A DNA stretch of 54,464 nucleotides from Pirellula staleyi DSM 6068 (GTDB lineage: Bacteria; Planctomycetota; Planctomycetia; Pirellulales; Pirellulaceae), in contig CAMBSL010000006.1 of assembly GCA_945870455.1 (NCBI GenBank), positions 1-54,464 of the forward strand. The letters run 5' to 3'. Under the pieces are notes generated by a model, which did no database searches, was not told the origin of the DNA, and saw only the letters and a list, made by a program, of their open reading frames with translations. Shown here piece by piece: positions 13,066 through 54,464 of the stretch (the stretch's first letter is position 1; each line of letters opens with the position of its first letter). The position numbers were made by a program, and so were the translations under genes.

Positions 13066-14058
13066 TTATGCGTTCATAATGGATATTCGCAAATGCGAAT
13101 CAAAGTGAGCGGTTGCAACCATATTGCTCTCCAGATGAATGTCCATGTCCCGCGCCAACGAAGGCAAATTGAATCGATGGATTTCTTTTTCTTGCGAATC
13201 GTTGAAGAACAATAACAAGCCTCCAGTAGACCCACCCGAAACGCCGACCGCAGTCCCATCTTTTAGCCACTGCACGCGCCATACGAGTCCGCCGGGAATC
13301 CCTTCGCATGCATGCGACTTGCGAAGCGCGCCATCATCCCAGCCAAACCGCAGCATCAACGGTTCATGAACCGCACCGAACGGATTCGTGGCTTTGTGGG
13401 TTCCGCCTGCAATGAGCTCCTTTCGCTCCGCATGGTAGGCCAACGATCGAACTCCGCCATACTCTGCCTGCTGGCCTTTGTTCTCCGTATAGAGCGGTGT
13501 TGCCTCGATCGTTCGCTCTAGTTTTCGGTCTGCAATGTTCCAAACGTGAATCTTGCCAAGCAAATCGCCGGTTATCAGTTGATTTCCGCTTGGATGAAAC
13601 TCAACGCTGTAAATGTGTCGCTCATGCCCGCCCCATTCGGCGATTTTCTCGCCGTTCGCCATACTCCATAGCTTGACCAGCATGTCGTTCCCAACCGATG
13701 CAAGCGTGCTTCCATCAGGCGAAATAGCAACGCCTCGAATCCAACCTGAATGCGCATCGGACTTGCGCAACAAAGACGGCGCATCGGTTCGAACGGCCCA
13801 CCACATCAAGCTACCTTCACAACCACCCGAAACAAGCTGTTGACTATCGGGACTATAGCACAACGCATGAACCCAGCTTTCATGCCCCTTTAAAATGGTT
13901 TTCTCTCCGCCTGGAATACGCCACAATTGCAACGACGAATCCTCGGATGTGCTTACGGCTTGTTGACCATCTGGCGAGATCCGACATGCGATCAAGGGGC
14001 GGTCGTGTTTCCACTGATGAACCACATGCGTCTTGGTGAAATCGATGGGAAGATTCAC
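13066..14058 (-). CDS. WD40 repeat protein
   Basis: 330 residues made of about seven WD40 blades; typical blade cores are ACRISPDGQQAVSTSEDSSL, WVHALCYSPDSQQLVSGG and GVAISPDGSTLASVGNDMLV. No signal peptide or membrane segment is visible. The GTG start lies one base after the DUF1501 stop, so it is the third gene of a DUF1549/1553-DUF1501-WD40 operon. In planctomycetes such propellers are commonly found with these secreted cytochrome-domain proteins. The likely role is a protein-interaction platform, inferred from fold and context. The lack of an export signal is odd, given Tat or Sec signals on its operon partners. Confidence 0.88.
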   Translation of the reverse strand: MNLPIDFTKTHVVHQWKHDRPLIACRISPDGQQAVSTSEDSSLQLWRIPGGEKTILKGHESWVHALCYSPDSQQLVSGGCEGSLMWWAVRTDAPSLLRKSDAHSGWIRGVAISPDGSTLASVGNDMLVKLWSMANGEKIAEWGGHERHIYSVEFHPSGNQLITGDLLGKIHVWNIADRKLERTIEATPLYTENKGQQAEYGGVRSLAYHAERKELIAGGTHKATNPFGAVHEPLMLRFGWDDGALRKSHACEGIPGGLVWRVQWLKDGTAVGVSGGSTGGLLLFFNDSQEKEIHRFNLPSLARDMDIHLESNMVATAHFDSHLRISIMNA

Positions 14059-14059
14059 G

Positions 14060-15361
14060 CTAGGTTAGCACTTTCCAAACAGGGGCAGCGGCTGGATCTG
14101 CAATCGGCAACTCGCGTCCATCGACCGCAATCGATTGCGTCGAATCGACCCCTACGGCCTGGAGATAAGTATGAAACAAGGCTCCATGATCGACTTGCCC
14201 ATCGACCACTTCGGTCCCCTCATCGTTCGTCTTGCCAAAGATTGCCCCTCTAGCGACCTTGCCACCTGCCATCACGATCGACCAAGCCTTGGACCAGTGA
14301 TCGCGACCGTAATACAAATTGATATTGGGTGTTCGGCCGAACTCACTTAGTACAACCACGAGGGTCTTCTCCAGCATTCCGCGATCGAACAAGTCCGAGA
14401 TAAAAGTAGCAAACGCCCTATCAAACTCGCCGAGTTGCTCGATGTGAAAGTTAAAGTTCTCATTGTGTGTGTCGTAGTTAGAATGCGTTACTTGAACAAA
14501 CGAGACGCCGTTCTCCAGCAATCGCCGAGCCATGAGGCACTGTCGACCAAGATCGTGTTTGCCGTATCGGTCTTGATCGGCTTGTGGCTCTTTGGAAACG
14601 TCGAACACATCGCGGCGTTCCATCAATCGTAGGGCTTGTTCGTAGCTGTGGGTATAGGCGTCGGTGATGGCGGTTCGTCGTCGCGTCAAGAATTCTTCGT
14701 TCAGCCGACGTCGAAAGTCGTGTCTTCGCAATTCCGCCTCATCGTTCATGCCATCCGGTTTGGTTGTATTGGGGGGCGGCTTGGATCCACCCAACGAGAT
14801 GCTTGAGTACTTTGGACCCAGATATGCGGATTCGTTTCCCTTGCCTCCGCCGCCACCCGGTGTGACCACAATATGCCCGGGCAGCCCTCGGCTTTCGTCG
14901 TTGAGCATGCGAGCTGCGACGGCACCGATTTGCGGATACTCTGCCGCCGCAGTTTGGCGACGCCCCGTCAGCATCATATAAGCACCCTTGCCGTGATCGT
15001 CCTCCGATGTATTGACACCACGCAGCACACACAAGTGATGCATCTGCTTGGCCGTGTAGGGCAGCAAATCGCTCACATGGGTGCCAGGAACGGAGGTTGG
15101 AATAGAACGACAGGGGCCACCCGTTTTTGTGCCTGGTTTAGGATCCCAGCTTTCTAGTTGGCTCAATCCGCCATGCATGTTGAAGACAACGATGCGCATA
15201 TCTTGGGTCTTGAGTTGCTCTGCGGCAAGGCCGGTCGTGAGACTGCCTAATCCACCCGCGATGGCACTGCCCGCAACAGCGGTCGAACCAGAGCGTTGCA
15301 GAAATTGACGACGACTCAATCCATGTTCTCGCGAACCGCATGCATAATGTGCTAGGCTCAT
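14060..15361 (-). CDS. DUF1501 domain protein, Tat-exported
   Basis: 433 residues. The N-terminus carries a twin-arginine motif (LSRRQFLQRSG) followed by an Ala/Gly-rich hydrophobic stretch. The body has the DUF1501 hallmarks (VFNMHGGLSQLESWDPKPG, HNENFNFHIEQLGEFD, VLSEFGRTPNIN, GRDHWSKAWSIVMAGG). These sequences recall the alkaline-phosphatase/sulfatase superfamily, but no reaction is established. DUF1501 genes usually sit beside DUF1549/DUF1553 genes in planctomycetes, as here. Twenty-four bases separate it from the upstream gene and one base from the downstream WD40 gene. Tat export suggests folding, perhaps with a metal, before translocation to the periplasm. Confidence 0.92.
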   Translation of the reverse strand: MSLAHYACGSREHGLSRRQFLQRSGSTAVAGSAIAGGLGSLTTGLAAEQLKTQDMRIVVFNMHGGLSQLESWDPKPGTKTGGPCRSIPTSVPGTHVSDLLPYTAKQMHHLCVLRGVNTSEDDHGKGAYMMLTGRRQTAAAEYPQIGAVAARMLNDESRGLPGHIVVTPGGGGGKGNESAYLGPKYSSISLGGSKPPPNTTKPDGMNDEAELRRHDFRRRLNEEFLTRRRTAITDAYTHSYEQALRLMERRDVFDVSKEPQADQDRYGKHDLGRQCLMARRLLENGVSFVQVTHSNYDTHNENFNFHIEQLGEFDRAFATFISDLFDRGMLEKTLVVVLSEFGRTPNINLYYGRDHWSKAWSIVMAGGKVARGAIFGKTNDEGTEVVDGQVDHGALFHTYLQAVGVDSTQSIAVDGRELPIADPAAAPVWKVLT

Positions 15362-15385: not shown

Positions 15386-18334
15386 CTAAGGGTAAACTCG
15401 AAACTCGGAACTCGTCAGCAATCCCCACACTAACTCTTGTGCAATAGTCACCTTTTTGTCGGCAGCATTTGCAAGTTGTTCGCCAACCCATTGCAGTTCT
15501 TGTGCGGTAGGCTCACGCGACAGCAAGGATCGATACATCAATTTAACGGCTGCCATGGCGTCGGACTGTTTGGCAATCAAATCCGTAATGTTGCTGCCGC
15601 TGGCAGCCGACCACTGAAAAACAGATCCGCCGTTCGCCATGAATAACGCTTGATCCGGAGACGCAAAAAACTCATCGCTTGTTTGTCCAACGCCCGATGC
15701 AAACAGATTTGCAAAAACGTCCACGTTCGGACGGAGCTTGTCGAGCGCTTGGCGGGTCGCTTGCAGTGTTCTGGCATCCCGTTGCGCGGGCGTTGCGTCG
15801 GCCGCCAATGGAGTTTGCTTTTCTAGCTCTGCCGCCTCGGTTGCAATATAGTTATCGAGTACCTTGGTTGCCCGCAAGATGCTCAGCCCCAACTGTTCCG
15901 GAGACAACGACCGAAAGGTAGCGACGGCCAAGTTCTTCTGCCGGTCTTCAAGCACTTGTTGAAATGCTATTCCACATGTGTCGATCGCTTGTTGAATAGC
16001 GGTTGCCTTGATCAGGATTGTTTGTTCGGCTTGTTCGACTGATTTTTCTGCGGCGACCCGCATGGTTTCCATAGATGCCTCTTCGGTGGTCAAGGCGGCC
16101 AGTTTCTGCGATTGAGCCGAGAGTTCCGCGTCGATAGAAGTCAATTCCTTGTCAAGAGCGGATTGGGTCGCCTGGCGCGTTTCTCGGCTGGCAGCAACGG
16201 CTTGTTTGGCCGATTCAAGCGAGTCGGTAGCAACAAGAGATGTCGACTTATTAAGGGATTCGAATGTGGTTTGAAGCAATGCGAGTTCAACGGCGAGGCT
16301 CGCCCGCTTCTCTTGAGAAACGGATTTTTTGGACTGGATCGAGGCCAAGTTGGCTTTCGCTTCTACCAGAATCGGTTGGTGCTTGGACTGCTGCGCCATG
16401 TAATTGGCGACCATACCTTTTTGTTGATCACGCTCTTCCCCCGCAAGCCGATGCTCGGATTCTACTTGAGACACACTTTGCGAAAGAGCGATCCAAGATT
16501 GGAGTTGAGATAGGGCTGCCGTGTTTTTGATAGTCAAGACGTGTTCGGACTGAGCGGCTTGCCATTTCACTCGTGACGCAACGAACGCTTGGTCGGCAAT
16601 GGTGAGCGATTGCTCGGCCGGCTTCAAGCGGTTGACGACTTCTTGGATCTTGCCTCGCTCGGTTTCCAGAGCGACATTTTGGGTATCGCGGAAGGCGGAT
16701 GCGTCTGCGACCCCTTTTTCGCTTGCTGGGAGAGTCAGTTTGGATGCATCGGCTTTCGCTTTTGCCGTCGTAATCGCCTGAACAAGTTCCGGATCGTCGC
16801 CAGGTGATAGCGCCTTTGCCTGCTCTAATTTGCTGGCCGCTTCCTCAAGGAGAGCAACCCTGGTATTCAAATCCGCTCGCAGCTTGTTGGCTTTGGCGAG
16901 CACCGCATTCGATTCATCGAGCTTCTTTTTAACGTCATTAAAAGTCGCTTCGGCTTTGTCGAGATCGGCACGAATAGCAACTCGTTCCTTTTGTGCTGCT
17001 CGCCAGGCGGTTTTCGAATCATCCATCCCTTGATTAGCAGCTTCCGCAGCCAGAGCAAGTTGCGGCAGTTGCGAATCCAACGATTGTTTTCGAGCATTGA
17101 CTGCATTGGTAAGGATATCGGCCGCATCCTTTGGCAAGTTCAAGACCGTTCCGTTCCGGAGCGATGATTCGATTGGCAATCGACTGCCGCGTTGATAGAC
17201 CTCGCTCAGGGCAATTTGTTCGATCAAAGATCGCAGATCATATCCGGTTGCGACAAACGACTGGGTAAGTGCAGTCAGGAGCTTGGGGTTCGTTGGCGGA
17301 TTATCAGCATGATGCATGTCAAGCGGGTGCACGATTCCTCGGCCCAACATCATGGCCCAAACGCGATTGGCCCAGTTCTCCGCGAACGCTTGGTTTGCAT
17401 TGGACAACTGAGTCACCAGGGAGGCTCGGCGGCTCGAGGATGGTGGTTTGGGAGCACCTTCGAGCGAGTCGGGCATGGGCGCTGCTTGATATCGTTGATC
17501 CGGCACTTGGTAGGATTCGATTTGTTCCGTTCCGCCTGGGACTCGCGTTCCCGTTCGAAACAATACACCCTTGTCGAACACGGATTCAAAAGTTGCGTCG
17601 CCAGCGGCGCGTTCGGCGTAGATTTGAATTTTTTGCTCGGCCCCTTTTTCGTCTTTGAATTTCGCTTCCGCAAGTAAGCTTGGGGACACAAAGGCAAGCA
17701 GTCCGTGATAGTCGATTTGAAGATAATCATCCACATTCGGATGGTCGTGGCATTGAGCACACTGCATATCTCGACCGAAGAAAACTCGGCCTATGTCGCG
17801 TGATACGGCGTGCGGGTCCCCCTCGCGTTCCAAAAAAAATCGCTGCTGAGCACGCTGGGAGGGATTCCACCATACGCTTGCGACCGATTCCTTAACGATG
17901 GCGTCGAGGGGCTTGTTTTCGTCGACAACCTGCCTGAGGTAACTCAGCCACTTTGCCCGATCGACGTATTTGTTAGGTCGACGTTGCAAAAGAGTTTTGT
18001 CGAGCCAATCGACCATTCGTTCTCGGTGAAGAGGGTCGTTTAGCAAGCGTTTTACCCAACGCGGCCAACGATCCGGCGCGAGGTCAGCTAGGAATTCATC
18101 GAGTTCAAGCTGAGAAGGGACCACAAGCCGCAAATCGAGCGATAATCGACGAAAAAGCTGACTGTCGGACTCGCGAGGGGAAACGAACGCATCGAAGTCT
18201 CGATCTGCGAGGGCATCGATAGACGTTGATAGACTTGTTTGTCCGTGAGCCGACGGCTGAATACCCAGGTGGCTGGTGAGCAACGACCCGAGGGTCAGCA
18301 ACCAACGAAACAACAGGCTTTGGCCGAGTCTCAT
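15386..18334 (-). CDS. DUF1549/DUF1553 protein with a large coiled-coil insert
   Basis: 982 residues. A Sec signal peptide (1 to about 32) is followed by DUF1549 (about 35-220), which contains a CAQCHDHP heme-c-type motif (Cys192, Cys195, His196). The first DUF1553 part (NRVWAMMLGRGIVHPLDM, about 325-345) comes next, and the last part ends with LSREPTAQELQWVGEQL. Between them, about residues 405-790 form Ala/Gln/Glu/Lys-rich heptad-like coiled coil. Ordinary DUF1549/1553 proteins lack this insert. It is first in an operon with DUF1501 and WD40. It may be an envelope heme protein carrying its own scaffold; substrate unknown. A similar coiled coil is in the gene at 52576. Confidence 0.88.
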   Translation of the reverse strand: MRLGQSLLFRWLLTLGSLLTSHLGIQPSAHGQTSLSTSIDALADRDFDAFVSPRESDSQLFRRLSLDLRLVVPSQLELDEFLADLAPDRWPRWVKRLLNDPLHRERMVDWLDKTLLQRRPNKYVDRAKWLSYLRQVVDENKPLDAIVKESVASVWWNPSQRAQQRFFLEREGDPHAVSRDIGRVFFGRDMQCAQCHDHPNVDDYLQIDYHGLLAFVSPSLLAEAKFKDEKGAEQKIQIYAERAAGDATFESVFDKGVLFRTGTRVPGGTEQIESYQVPDQRYQAAPMPDSLEGAPKPPSSSRRASLVTQLSNANQAFAENWANRVWAMMLGRGIVHPLDMHHADNPPTNPKLLTALTQSFVATGYDLRSLIEQIALSEVYQRGSRLPIESSLRNGTVLNLPKDAADILTNAVNARKQSLDSQLPQLALAAEAANQGMDDSKTAWRAAQKERVAIRADLDKAEATFNDVKKKLDESNAVLAKANKLRADLNTRVALLEEAASKLEQAKALSPGDDPELVQAITTAKAKADASKLTLPASEKGVADASAFRDTQNVALETERGKIQEVVNRLKPAEQSLTIADQAFVASRVKWQAAQSEHVLTIKNTAALSQLQSWIALSQSVSQVESEHRLAGEERDQQKGMVANYMAQQSKHQPILVEAKANLASIQSKKSVSQEKRASLAVELALLQTTFESLNKSTSLVATDSLESAKQAVAASRETRQATQSALDKELTSIDAELSAQSQKLAALTTEEASMETMRVAAEKSVEQAEQTILIKATAIQQAIDTCGIAFQQVLEDRQKNLAVATFRSLSPEQLGLSILRATKVLDNYIATEAAELEKQTPLAADATPAQRDARTLQATRQALDKLRPNVDVFANLFASGVGQTSDEFFASPDQALFMANGGSVFQWSAASGSNITDLIAKQSDAMAAVKLMYRSLLSREPTAQELQWVGEQLANAADKKVTIAQELVWGLLTSSEFRVYP

Positions 18335-50488: not shown

Positions 50489-52573
50489 ATGCGTTCCAAA
50501 GCAATATTGATAGCGATTTTCCTGCATTGGATCCTCGGGCTAACTAGCCATGCGGTCGCTCAGTTGCCTTCACCTGAGCTGAATGCCCTGGGGCAACTTG
50601 GCGGACAAATCGATCAGCCAATCGTACCCCTGGACAAGGCCGCTGGGCAAAACCTCACCGAGAGCGTGCCAAGCTTTTCCTGCAGCGCGATCAAGGATGG
50701 AAAAATCGCGGGGGATTTGCAACCGGGAGTGGTTCAAGTGCGGGCCCAGAACTCGCTTGGGCTTTCCAACTCGAGAAATTTCCTCGTAACTTCTCAACCT
50801 TGGGCAATCATCACTGGCAATGAATCCCAATCGACGGCCGCTGGTATTTCACTCGATGGAATGTTTCAGGATGAATGTCCAGAGCGAGGGCGCAACTACT
50901 ACCGATTCAAGTTGGATCGCGACCAAAACATCGAGATCGAATCCTTTGCTCATTCCCTAGATTCACGTGCTCAGTTGAATCTGTCCATTCTGACCACGAG
51001 CACGACCAAGATCGCATTTGCCAACGCGACCAATGATCGAGACGCAGTGCTTCGGTGCAAGCTTTTGGCGAACATTGAATACACGCTCGTCGCGCATGAT
51101 CATTTGTATCGAGGCGGTCCGGACTATCGCTACGCCATCTGCGTTAAGTCCGTTAGCGATGATCTCATTCTAAAACGTTCGGCGGGCAAGGCAGCGACCG
51201 CCTGTTGGCAAGAACTGTGCAGCCAAATTGCGACGATTCAAACTAGCAGTCAGCCTCACAAGCCGATAAATCCTCAGTACCTGCTCCCACGTTGCTCATT
51301 GGTTCGCCCTCCTACGGTCGACAAAGCTCCGAGCGTACACGAGGAAAGTTCGGCACCCAACGCAGTGGCTGTCACAGTCGAATGGCCGACTCTGATCGAC
51401 GGAGTATTTGACGCCAATGACGATGTGGATATGTTCGATTTCGATTGTGAAAAGGATGCGAACGTCGTAATCGAAGTCGTGTCGCAGCGAATTGGCCAAT
51501 TGACCGATAGTACGATGGTTGTCTACCGAGTTGATAATCCAAAAATGCCAAACGAAAAAATGAACCGCTTGGCTGAGAATGATGACCTTCCCGCAACCGG
51601 AAATGGCGAAATGCGTTTTGCCATCAAGGACTCCTTATTGACTTTTCGCGCACCGGACAAGGGCACCTATCGACTGGCCGTGCGCAACCAGCAAAACTCG
51701 GATCGTCTCGCGACGCCACCTCGATATGCTGTTGAAATTCGCCAACCCAAGCCCGGATTCGCGTTGGCATGCCACTGGGCTAGTCCAGTGCGCGATCTTG
51801 ACCAAGCTCGTATGTCTAGCAACACCATTAACCTCGGTGGCTCTGCATTGCTAAGCGTACATGCTTTGCGATTTGACGGATTCAATTCACCTATTGAACT
51901 GACCGTGAGTGGCTTGCCTGAGGATATTCGCGGCGGAGCAGGTATTATCGCAATCGATCAGAATTCCACCACTTTGAGTTTGTGGCATGATGCTCAAGGC
52001 TCAGTGCCAGCAACCTCCGAACCCGTCCTGTCGTTGCATGTTGCCGGTCAATCCAAAGTTGGCGAACAGATGCTCGCCTCTGTCGCAACTCCTGTGGAAG
52101 TGATTTGGGGTTTGATCGATACCTTTCGATCTCCGATCGCCCGAATAACAAGCGATCTGCTGTGCACTCGATCCGCATCGCGCACTTGTCCCATTACTAT
52201 AGAACTCGGACCAACAGCAACTAGCCCAGGCGAGCCGATCGTCATGAGCTGTATCCGTGGTCAGCCGCTCAAGGTTCCCATTCGAGTCACTCGGCGAGAA
52301 GGCGGTGTGGAGGCGGTTGTTTTGGTTCGCTTGCGGCAAACGCCGACCAAGACAACTGCGGCAGAAGTCAAGCTCGAGGCGAAATCGACCGAAGGAACGC
52401 TTGAACTTCAAATCCCGAAAGATGCACCCATCGGTGAGTATTTGCTCAGTACTTTGTGCGAAGCTCCCGTATCGATTCCGAACTTAGATCCCGCAGCCAA
52501 AGACAAAACAACCAAAATTTCCCTGCAATTACCTAGTTCTTGTATTCGCTTGCGAATCGGAGATGCTCCATAA
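50489..52573 (+). CDS. Secreted PPC-like domain protein
   Basis: 694 residues from ATG 50489, which starts a good signal peptide (MRSKAILIAIFLHWILGL, cut near HAVAQ); the frame is open to 50393. The first part (LGGQIDQPIVPL) begins like planctomycete proteins with an Ig-like N-terminal region. Two PPC-type beta domains follow, at about 105-220 (GRNYYRFKLDRDQNIEIESF) and about 290-430 (DANDDVDMFDFDCEKDANVV; KGTYRLAVRNQQNSD). The C-terminal third is beta-rich with no known motif. It is 2 bases before the cytochrome-WD40 lipoprotein gene, so the two are co-translated. It may be an envelope binding or scaffold component. Confidence 0.8.
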   Translation: MRSKAILIAIFLHWILGLTSHAVAQLPSPELNALGQLGGQIDQPIVPLDKAAGQNLTESVPSFSCSAIKDGKIAGDLQPGVVQVRAQNSLGLSNSRNFLVTSQPWAIITGNESQSTAAGISLDGMFQDECPERGRNYYRFKLDRDQNIEIESFAHSLDSRAQLNLSILTTSTTKIAFANATNDRDAVLRCKLLANIEYTLVAHDHLYRGGPDYRYAICVKSVSDDLILKRSAGKAATACWQELCSQIATIQTSSQPHKPINPQYLLPRCSLVRPPTVDKAPSVHEESSAPNAVAVTVEWPTLIDGVFDANDDVDMFDFDCEKDANVVIEVVSQRIGQLTDSTMVVYRVDNPKMPNEKMNRLAENDDLPATGNGEMRFAIKDSLLTFRAPDKGTYRLAVRNQQNSDRLATPPRYAVEIRQPKPGFALACHWASPVRDLDQARMSSNTINLGGSALLSVHALRFDGFNSPIELTVSGLPEDIRGGAGIIAIDQNSTTLSLWHDAQGSVPATSEPVLSLHVAGQSKVGEQMLASVATPVEVIWGLIDTFRSPIARITSDLLCTRSASRTCPITIELGPTATSPGEPIVMSCIRGQPLKVPIRVTRREGGVEAVVLVRLRQTPTKTTAAEVKLEAKSTEGTLELQIPKDAPIGEYLLSTLCEAPVSIPNLDPAAKDKTTKISLQLPSSCIRLRIGDAP

Positions 52574-52575
52574 AC

Positions 52576-54464
52576 ATGGTCAACAATTTTAATCTCGATC
52601 TCAAACTCGATCTCAATCGTCTCGTGGGGCGCTGTCTCCATTGTGTCGCTTGCCTCGTCGTCGCCCTTGCGGCATGCGGCAAACTCGGAGCTCAGACGCC
52701 GATCTACTTTGAAGATGCAGTTGCTCCAATTCTGAGAAAGAACTGTGTCGCTTGTCACAATACCAAGATCGCAGAGGGAGGACTAAATCTAGAGAATCCA
52801 GCAAACATCACCAAAGGAGGTGACACGGGCTCTTCGATCGATGCAGCAAACGTTGAGATGAGTCTACTCATCAAGCGTCCCACGGAAACCGAAGACCCCA
52901 TGCCTCCCGTCGACAATACCGTTGGTGCGGAAAAACTGACGATGGACCAGCTCAACATCATTCGAGCATGGATTGCCGGTGGGGCTTTGTCCAAAGGGAC
53001 AGCCGGCGTAATGTCAGGCCTTGTCCTGCGACTTCCAGAAAACGCGAGGGCGAGTTACGCGCTGGCTGTCTCGCGCGACAATGACTTCGTCGCGTTCGGG
53101 CGAGGCGGACATTTGGTCATCCATAATGCTCGGCGATTGGCCACTGCCCAAAGCGTGGAAGGCATGTTGAGTTCGACTCCAACTCAAGTCATCTCGAATG
53201 CTCATCCCGACTTCATCCACTCGATTGCTATCAGCGAGGACGGAGAGCGGATCGCGACAGGCAGTACCGGTCAAGTCAAGATTTGGAAGCACGTAAACAA
53301 CACGATCGAGTCGTCACGCGTTGCTCTCGAAACAGCCGGGATTCCCATTTCAAACCTGCTGTGTACTTCGGTGGATGGCAAGCTACTTGCAACCGTGAAG
53401 AAACGAGCCCAAGCTCAAAGCGAAAAAGCTCCCGGTTCTACAATCCCCGGCATCCTAACCATGCTAAATCGGAGCGGAGAGATAGTCCAATCCATTGAGG
53501 TGGCCGATTCGTCTTTGGTATGTGGTACTTGGTCTCCATCCAACCAACGATTCTTTGCCGTTGGTGCCAACAACATGCTTTATGCTTGGGATTTGCAAGC
53601 AATGCCAATTGCCCCACCCACTGCTTCGCCACTACCAACCGCAATTCAATCGCTTGACTCGATCGATGAAACGACCCTTCTAACGATTTCCGAGCGAAAG
53701 GTTTCCGTTTGGAAATACAACACATCCGCCGCAGCGGAGAACGTACCGACGCATCCGCTCGCTGTCGCGATCAACGCTGCTGGTCCGATCGATCTGGCCA
53801 ATATCTCCCCTGACCGAACCAAACTCATTGTTGCAACTCAAGTTGATTCAACCAACAACACGTTGATGAAGCTTTGGAACATTCCTACAGCAAAGCTTGT
53901 GGGAACGATCGAACGAGATCGAAAAAGTCAACTCGCCTATTTGAATGCGGATCGTATCGTGCGGCGCGCGCAGGGGGCAGTCGAACGATCGAATGCGACC
54001 GTAACGGAACTTGAAAAAGCACTTACTACCGAAACGACGGCTGTCACCGCTGCGAAAGCCGCCAAAGACAAAGCGGCCGAGTTATTAGCCAAGAAAGAGC
54101 AAGAACGTCTTGCCGCAGTTCAAGCCATCGCAGATCACGAAAAAACGATGCTTGAAACAAAAGCGGCCATCGATGCGGCCACCCTCAAGCTAACGCAGTT
54201 AACGACGGAGCTTGAGCCAAAGAAAAAAATAGCAACTGACCTGGAAAAGCAGAAGACAGATTCTCAAGCAGCCATGGACAATGCCGCTCAGTCGTTAGCC
54301 GCCACTGAGGAGACGCTCAAAGCCGCACAAGTGCGACTGGATTCACGCAAGCAATTGGTTACCAAGGAGTCCGAGGAATTGGCTTCTGTGAAGACCAAGA
54401 GCGAAAGCCTCAAAGCCCAATCCGAGATGGTTACGTTTTCCGCGCACGCGATCGCGTTCGCGGA
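52576..54464 (+). CDS. Cytochrome c-WD40-coiled-coil lipoprotein (3' end beyond window)
   Basis: 629 codons are visible with no stop. The N-terminus (CLHCVACLVVALAACGK) has a lipobox-like LAAC, so lipid anchoring is likely. A planctomycete cytochrome c domain follows with CVACHNTKIAEGGLNLE (about 57-73) and MPPVDN. WD40-like blades cover about 155-450 (SIAISEDGERIATGSTGQVK; WSPSNQRFFAVGANNMLYAW), with one blade interrupted by a coiled coil from about residue 470 to the window end, rich in Ala, Lys, Glu and Thr. The insertion style mirrors the DUF1549/1553 protein at 15386. It follows the PPC gene by 2 bases. The remainder of the propeller is presumably beyond 54464. Confidence 0.85.
   Translation, partial: MVNNFNLDLKLDLNRLVGRCLHCVACLVVALAACGKLGAQTPIYFEDAVAPILRKNCVACHNTKIAEGGLNLENPANITKGGDTGSSIDAANVEMSLLIKRPTETEDPMPPVDNTVGAEKLTMDQLNIIRAWIAGGALSKGTAGVMSGLVLRLPENARASYALAVSRDNDFVAFGRGGHLVIHNARRLATAQSVEGMLSSTPTQVISNAHPDFIHSIAISEDGERIATGSTGQVKIWKHVNNTIESSRVALETAGIPISNLLCTSVDGKLLATVKKRAQAQSEKAPGSTIPGILTMLNRSGEIVQSIEVADSSLVCGTWSPSNQRFFAVGANNMLYAWDLQAMPIAPPTASPLPTAIQSLDSIDETTLLTISERKVSVWKYNTSAAAENVPTHPLAVAINAAGPIDLANISPDRTKLIVATQVDSTNNTLMKLWNIPTAKLVGTIERDRKSQLAYLNADRIVRRAQGAVERSNATVTELEKALTTETTAVTAAKAAKDKAAELLAKKEQERLAAVQAIADHEKTMLETKAAIDAATLKLTQLTTELEPKKKIATDLEKQKTDSQAAMDNAAQSLAATEETLKAAQVRLDSRKQLVTKESEELASVKTKSESLKAQSEMVTFSAHAIAFA

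Follow-up and report, generated by a model that had tools for sequence, protein, structure and literature searches.

Why should an apparently exported cytochrome of a planctomycete carry a coiled coil of nearly 400 residues in the middle of one of its domains? The question is raised by a gene at 15386..18334 (minus strand) in the stretch of DNA analysed here, which we call the window and which comprises positions 1 to 54,464 of contig CAMBSL010000006.1 of Pirellula staleyi DSM 6068 (assembly GCA_945870455.1). Its open and intact reading frame encodes a protein of 982 residues, in which a PSCyt2 (DUF1549) domain is followed by a PSD1 (DUF1553) domain that the coil divides in two. Of the bare anatomy, that is, a coiled coil at a conserved site and in a few length classes, we are highly confident. 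Of the parts of the protein that we compared across homologues, the coil has the lowest conservation of sequence and the highest conservation of length, and the explanation that we favour, if only tentatively, is that this anatomy serves as a spacer or crossbar of fixed length.

What kind of protein carries the insert?

Both domains are recognised by Pfam well above their curated cut-offs: PF07583 (PSCyt2) scores 84.3 bits against 29.8 over residues 51–217 (17684..18184), and PF07587 (PSD1) scores 86.3 bits against 28.5 in two stretches, the better of which covers residues 307–386 (17177..17416). Searching the genome that contains the window also returns two PSD1 pieces, lying 1.2 kb apart in one frame (C6:17177-17419 and 15485-15943), and together with the homologue alignment this search places the second part at residues 801–982, which with the stop codon occupy 15386..15934. 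The domain is thus split, not absent, as an earlier note on this DNA, made by reading the letters and their translations, had said. That note had also picked out the sequence CAQCHDHP (residues 192–199, 17738..17761), whose heme c motif C-x-x-C-H (residues 192–196, 17747..17761) is invariant in all 43 sequences of one alignment (A1) and all 39 of another (A2). A Sec-type signal peptide can be read at residues 1–31 (18242..18334). The best reading is of an exported mono-heme c-type cytochrome, presumably loaded with heme and located outside the cytoplasm.

An assembly error or frameshift can be set aside as the cause of the insert, since the reading frame is uninterrupted in other assemblies too, for example in L063 (97%) and L061 (86% coil identity). 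The own genome is rich in related genes, with 69 matches to PSD1 and 81 to DUF1501; among the former we found no second copy of the 982-residue protein, the next best match scoring 146 bits over residues 31–393 only.

What shape would the coil take?

The insert occupies residues 402–800 or thereabouts, and between 411 and 798 it is 18% alanine and rich in leucine, glutamine, serine, glutamate and lysine. In a profile of the 76 homologues with an insert of full length (the two-arm class described below, the query included), the hydrophobic residues recur with a peak at 3.36–3.54 residues in 11 of 11 windows of 70 columns across this region, and the power of that periodicity (8.4–18) exceeds the 95% level of shuffled controls (5.6–6.5) throughout. 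Taken alone, the window's protein is borderline (7.46 against a shuffle level of 7.39).

AlphaFold2, supplied with 43 aligned sequences, returned a model with a mean predicted local distance difference test score (pLDDT) of 90.5 and a predicted template modelling score of 0.79; the coil is mostly at a pLDDT of about 90 or more, falling to 70–76 at both tips. Residue numbers here are those of the protein, which equal the model number plus 44 (where a model number is given, we say so). The predicted course consists of helix 1 at residues 402–509 (16808..17131), a first tip at 510–514 (16793..16807), helix 2 at 515–698 (16241..16792), a second tip at 699–703 (16226..16240) and helix 3 at 704–800 (15935..16225), giving helices of 108, 184 and 97 residues. 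An alpha helix rises by 0.1485 nm per residue, and the predicted lengths are accordingly 16.0, 27.3 and 14.4 nm. Helix 1 would be the outgoing strand of one arm and helix 3 the returning strand of another, with helix 2 continuous and common to both, so that two hairpin arms of 14–16 nm appear to leave the body on opposite sides as a crossbar of about 27 nm. The opposite directions are deduced from how long the helices are and from the unbroken course of the middle one rather than from a measurement of the angle; we think them likely, and would be slightly more confident had the structure comparisons and prolines discussed below not given us pause. The long coiled coil growing from the middle of DUF1553, which the earlier note had described, is thus borne out, and its course is redrawn: where a single antiparallel hairpin of about 385 residues had been proposed, the model has two shorter hairpins on one 184-residue helix. 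The three helices, like the length classes and the homologues that lack the insert altogether, had not been noted by the earlier reader.

Two other courses were considered and rejected. A single hairpin of 385 residues, with an arm of about 28 nm, conflicts with the continuous central helix of the model. An up-down-up-down bundle of four helices would need a turn near residues 600–614, where the 76 sequences have no proline and charge covariation is flat. Indeed, among these sequences proline reaches 74 and 48 per 1000 at the two tips (residues 505–514 and 695–704), and its count is zero throughout residues 595–614, where the base turn would be required. In a scan for charge covariation in antiparallel register, 3.5% of all centres have a windowed value as low as the minimum at tip 1; for tip 2 the share is 9%, and for the base turn 63.5%. 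Covariation is also low where prolines face one another about tip 1: columns 453 and 572 are opposed about that tip, and their index sum, 201, is among the two lowest sums of the scan. We take the covariation and the facing prolines together as a hint in favour of the predicted course.

Comparison with known structures points in the same direction for parts of the coil. In VIA-align, whose Z values on helical models may, by the tool's own warning, reflect merely a common arrangement, arm 2 (model residues ~553–768) fits known hairpins at a root-mean-square deviation (rmsd) of 3.5–5.0 over some 190–210 residues (6ewy, 9qe0, 7ogt and 8i4x); of arm 1, it is the outermost ~100 residues (model ~418–525) that fit, at 2.4–3.9 (the dynein stalk 8pqw, and 3mxz, 9qgy and 3fpp). 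Foldseek, run with the whole model and with an armless relative, gave nothing at E ≤ 0.001, and in sequence searches of the PDB the rows listed were all generic coils such as myosin, SMC or tropomyosin.

Is the length of the coil conserved?

Insert lengths, counted between anchors at residues 388 and 800, were compared in 90 unique homologues, which remained of 140 phmmer matches after truncated, low-scoring and partial open reading frames (ORFs) had been dropped (leaving 98) and duplicates removed. They fall into classes: 6–9 residues in seven rows, 232–245 in five, 278 and 299 in one each, and 392–416 in 76, the query among them. Within this last, two-arm class, 51 inserts measure 392–399 residues, with 40 at exactly 396, and the other 25 measure 402–416; these 25 correspond to the window's own clade of 25 in a tree of the 90 rows, and their ~15 extra residues align to the linker at 396–410, outside the coil, which disposes of the idea that they are added heptads. 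A second set of loci (L138–L241, overlapping the genomes of the first in part, with L205 the same as L126 and L213 the window itself) has 5–10 residues in armless genes with a complete C-terminal match, 230–235 in nine, then 244, 253, 253 and 308, 395–396 in nine, and 411 in the window. The broken gene L229 has 363; L204 runs into the end of its contig, and negative or odd gaps elsewhere in this set are partial C-terminal matches. There are, then, three length classes, with no arm (about 7 residues), one arm (mostly 230–236) and two arms (396). One arm of the model, at 108+5+108 residues plus a linker of ~11, would come to 232, the one-arm length.

Where the insert occurs in aligned homologues, it occurs at the same point. 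The coil proper (411–798) has 388 residues in 51 of the 76 two-arm sequences and 384–393 in all of them; among 43 non-redundant sequences, less than 40% identical in the coil, all lie at 384–389. Over the 2850 pairs that the 76 form, the coil has a mean divergence of 0.805, and yet 47% of pairs are equal in length and the mean difference is 1.03 residues. The corresponding values are 0.525, 16% and 5.57 for residues 50–388, and 0.57, 28.5% and 1.90 for residues 800–979. A stretch whose length is near-constant while its sequence is free to drift suggests that length, not sequence, is its working feature.

How did the arms arise?

The least variable part of the coil is the region around tip 1 (residues 496–530), with a mean entropy of 2.14 bits and values below 2.5 bits in 20 of its 35 columns; the rod segments stand at 2.69–3.06 bits and tip 2 at 2.67, with 9 of its 31 columns under 2.5. 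The family consensus at tip 1 reads lL.EAA.ka..A...LPPdDkELa.AAakfkaRa. Inserts shorter than the two-arm length (20 of them, including three of odd length and one duplicate) resemble hairpin 1 more than hairpin 2, at a median of 50.5 against 40.3 bits on the respective profiles; reversed sequences give −3.2 and −1.2, and unrelated PSCyt1-WD40 coils 8.3 and 21.3. Three of these inserts, L111, L117 and L118, score only 1.8–17.2 bits on the hairpin-1 profile, and their arms may be independent or very diverged.

The two hairpins also resemble each other. The hairpin-1 profile gives hairpin 2 a median of 25.1 bits, against 14.8 for swapped halves, 8.3 for unrelated coils and −2.8 for reversed sequences, and the hairpin-2 profile gives hairpin 1 43.7 bits against 27.4 (swapped) and 21.3 (unrelated). 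This lends moderate support to an origin of the second arm by tandem duplication of the hairpin; when the whole coil was scored at successive offsets for an internal repeat, the signal was swamped by the heptads.

A quick-search tree of the core alone, with 136 rows and rooted on 10 armless distant relatives, has a single clade (Shimodaira–Hasegawa-like approximate likelihood ratio test 86) that holds the 85 two-arm rows along with five one-arm and two odd ones, and the armless and remaining one-arm rows branch outside it. The label changes required on this tree number 6 for two arms, 6 for one and 4 for none. With moderate backbone support, it is compatible with a stepwise passage from no arm to one and then two, with later losses. 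In the 90-row tree without an outgroup, drawn from its midpoint, armless rows fall among two-arm rows, so the direction of change depends on the outgroup rooting.

What company does the gene keep?

The gene is followed on the same strand by a DUF1501 gene (14060..15361; 323.4 bits), whose product has the twin-arginine signal SRRQFLQ, and then by a WD40 gene (13066..14058), whose product was assigned by domain scan and has no export signal recognisable in our tests. This order is conserved. In 77 homologous loci (L061–L137, with flanks of up to 6 kb, many shorter), DUF1501 lies directly downstream in 69, the other eight ending within 1.5 kb of the gene, so that both operon partners named in the earlier note hold up: DUF1501 appears in 69 of 69 loci able to show it and WD40 in 63 of 66. 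Six loci have DUF1501 without WD40; L083, L107 and L111 end too soon, and L102, L109 and L125 have room. These last three form one clade in the 90-row tree.

Loci with shorter arms or none (L192–L211) keep the same company, with DUF1501 in 18 of 20 (L199 and L204 run into contig ends) and a WD40 match in 15 of 20; L202, L203 and L209 show no WD40 match in the ~1.9 kb left to them. The operon is thus kept with or without arms, which makes the arms an accessory to the module. Insert-free homologues, or inserts at varying positions, were what the earlier note had said would speak against it: insert-free and one-arm proteins do exist, in the same operon, and position and length are conserved wherever the insert occurs.

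Tests for export signals, which are crude and whose counts are not de-duplicated between overlapping sets of loci, found a twin-arginine pattern in all 114 DUF1501 ORFs, 1 of 79 WD40 and 9 of 127 PSCyt2/PSD1. A Sec-like hydrophobic core was found in 106 of 127 PSCyt2/PSD1, 103 of 114 DUF1501 and 2 of 79 WD40 ORFs, with internal-stretch controls of 0, 8 and 0, respectively. With no export signal of its own, the WD40 protein would be cytoplasmic, or would be carried out with DUF1501 by the twin-arginine route in a possible case of hitch-hiking. For DUF1501 itself, phmmer gave no solved relative at E ≤ 1.

How widely is the coil distributed?

Our surveys scored five candidates per genome in the family and three in the phylum, and the counts, taken by eye, are minimum figures. 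Of the 149 genomes in the family, 38 or more have a match of two-arm length, as do at least 6 of the 7 searched in the genus, the window's genome included; in G105, a single contig estimated as 100% complete, there is none among the matches listed. Across 294 genomes of the phylum, matches to nearly the whole profile come from at least the window's genome and nine genomes of one other family in the class, and G425 has a broken match of this kind among those listed. Singulisphaera acidiphila (L082) is a named two-arm case.

A partnership with the gene at 52576, for which the earlier note had proposed a search for co-occurrence, can be dropped: relatives of that gene are near-universal, in 146 of the 149 family genomes, and its first 460 residues find only weak matches in the 77 loci, where no linkage is seen. 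By their pattern of scores these weak matches look like PSCyt1-PSCyt2-PSD1 proteins for the most part.

What might the arms be for?

On the explanation that we tentatively favour, an exported PSCyt2/PSD1 protein would have gained a coiled-coil hairpin arm at one point of PSD1, and the arm would later have doubled. Helix 1 would run out for some 16 nm and turn at the conserved tip 1; the unbroken second helix would retrace that path, pass the heme body and continue on its far side to turn at tip 2; and helix 3, about 14 nm long, would lead back to the body and the remainder of PSD1. Such a bar would act through its length, whether in the periplasm or on the surface of the cell, keeping the heme body 14–16 nm from whatever the tips touch, or keeping neighbouring bodies apart. 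A bolder version makes of it a built-in ruler, a crossbar of ~27 nm with the heme body at its centre, whose exact length would be selected because it spans the periplasm or sets the spacing of a lattice of electron carriers, the paralogues with no, one or two arms in a genome serving different distances; this we think rather doubtful.

Several findings weigh against the spacer and the geometry that it assumes. The model does not fix the straightness of the arms or their angle to the body. The whole of arm 1 fits known coils only at an rmsd of 10–21 (6z9l, 8dk2, 6djl and 5c1f), and the rows that extend over both halves have a large rmsd or, where it is low, align only ~200 residues (7a0g at 3.4, 8to0 at 5.5 and 6h2f at 6.1), so that the structure matches do not settle the overall course. 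Proline is raised within helix 1 (47 per 1000 at residues 445–454, 38% at column 453) and within helix 2 (38–64 per 1000 over 535–574, 61% at column 572), and with the poor whole-length fits this allows for a bend in arm 1. Taken over the entire scan, the charge covariation does not reach significance, as the share of centres that equal the tip minima indicates, and three of its six lowest sums (182, 212 and 613) fit no turn. The tip 1 motif may be no more than a good helix turn. Intermediate inserts do occur, at 244–253, 278, 299 and 308 residues. Antiparallel coils resist unmatched insertions and deletions in any case, so a constant length supports a function of length without proving it. 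The armless homologues in the same operon make the arms dispensable for the core function and, finally, we found neither a membrane anchor nor a docking partner.

Some of these points are also what rival explanations are made of. The coil could be a passive insert, a helix of low complexity lodged in a permissive loop and held to length because unmatched insertions and deletions would destabilise the hairpin. The same operon does exist without the coil, the coil is 80% divergent, and PSD1 evidently tolerates inserts, given that in L242 it is split elsewhere by a different stretch; the few intermediate lengths can be read in this way as well. We nevertheless consider it unlikely, because a length that is steady to a few residues, a conserved tip 1 and two-arm-length matches in a quarter or more of the family's genomes are hard to square with indifference. 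Alternatively, the arms might form an assembly device, in which the tips or rods of neighbouring molecules pair into a periplasmic or surface mesh bearing cytochrome heads, and in which arm length would be fixed because the spacing of the lattice is fixed. Constant length, poorly conserved rods, a conserved tip 1 and alanine-rich heptads would all suit such a mesh, as would genome G136, which has a two-arm gene (L033), one-arm operons (L207 and L208) and an armless operon (L198). However, the rod surfaces are not conserved in the way that lattice contacts usually would be, and the Pfam and NCBIfam scans found no anchoring or S-layer domain; we rate an assembly role as somewhat improbable.

Could the arm instead move? 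In a lever of the kind found in dynein or SMC proteins, a change in the heme body would shift the register of the helices and be read at the tip, with the facing prolines as an elbow. The opposed columns 453 and 572, with their low covariation sum, fit this idea, and the straight outer part of arm 1 stops just inside those prolines (model 409 and 528), as would suit an elbow. Yet proline stands in column 453 in 29 of the 76 sequences and in column 572 in 46, and in both in only 22, close to the 17.6 that independence would give; Pfam finds no motor, nucleoside triphosphatase or otherwise, among the three products of the operon; and the likeness to SMC and dynein is one that coiled coils share in general. 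A lever is, in our view, very unlikely.

PSCyt/PSD and DUF1501 proteins fill planctomycete genomes, and an arm that is locked in length and comes in versions of none, one and two is a handle on their function: it predicts a distance that can be measured, and it could be removed or extended without touching the heme domain.

How does it compare with known systems?

The closest relatives are of course the other PSCyt2/PSD1 cytochrome proteins of planctomycetes, with which it shares both Pfam domains above cut-off, the CxxCH motif, an export signal and a DUF1501 neighbour. The two domains occur 41 times each in R. baltica, according to PMC2754498, which also reports a suggested redox role; for Verrucomicrobia, PMC5615132 states that the function of PSCyt/PSD and DUF1501 proteins is not known. 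What differs is that PSD1 is split by the coil here, whereas the armless L120 (6115..7692, plus strand) has a single unbroken PSD1 match (profile 1–244). In the literature searched, open-licence papers seen mostly as listings, we found no description of such an insert. The core of L120 also resembles, weakly, a phycobilisome linker domain, with many linker rows at Z 3.5–5.0, values that may mean a common arrangement only; PF00427 (E 8e-4) and DUF4214 (E 2e-4) are each hit in 1 of 39 members. In L242 (306..2636, minus strand, contig C115), another paralogue in the window's genome, which has heme motifs, the PSD1 pieces lie ~190 residues apart at another place, where the profile expects about 27, and the stretch between them is not coil-like and, by eye, beta-rich.

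DUF1501 has other partners, too. Published accounts place it beside WD40 genes in Planctomycetes (PMC5587647) and, as a DUF1800-DUF1501 pair predicted to form one operon, beside bacterial chitin synthase genes (PMC5122149); a 2012 comparative paper on DUF1501 clusters in the PVC bacteria is cited in PMC4452313. That pair shares with ours a DUF1501 partner with a twin-arginine motif, and differs in that a third gene, for WD40, a PSCyt2 heme domain and coil arms are present here. Among armless PSCyt2/PSD1 paralogues in the window's genome, the one with the highest score (C226; L245/L138) passes the DUF1800 cut-off, with 26.4 bits against 26.1, so PSD1 and DUF1800, both partners of DUF1501, may be related.

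Within the window itself, a PSCyt1-WD40 protein (52540..54462, plus strand, running off the contig end) likewise combines a planctomycete heme c motif with a coil inside another domain, in this case a propeller. Its coil is single, of ~165 residues and by eye without an LPxDxxL tip, its other domains are different, and no such protein was seen among the operon genes; judged by eye, its relatives L168, L169, L170, L172 and L173 have the coil as well.

Further afield are the SMC-type proteins and the dynein stalk, whose long hairpins also grow from a globular body and turn at a tip; arm 2 and the outer part of arm 1 have structural matches among such hairpins. The Pfam and NCBIfam scans found no ABC-type ATPase heads here (the coil scores 10.8 bits with SMC_prok_B, whose cut-off is 567), and the resemblance is of a kind generic to coils. 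What would set the planctomycete protein apart from both is that a single continuous helix is predicted to run through its two hairpins.

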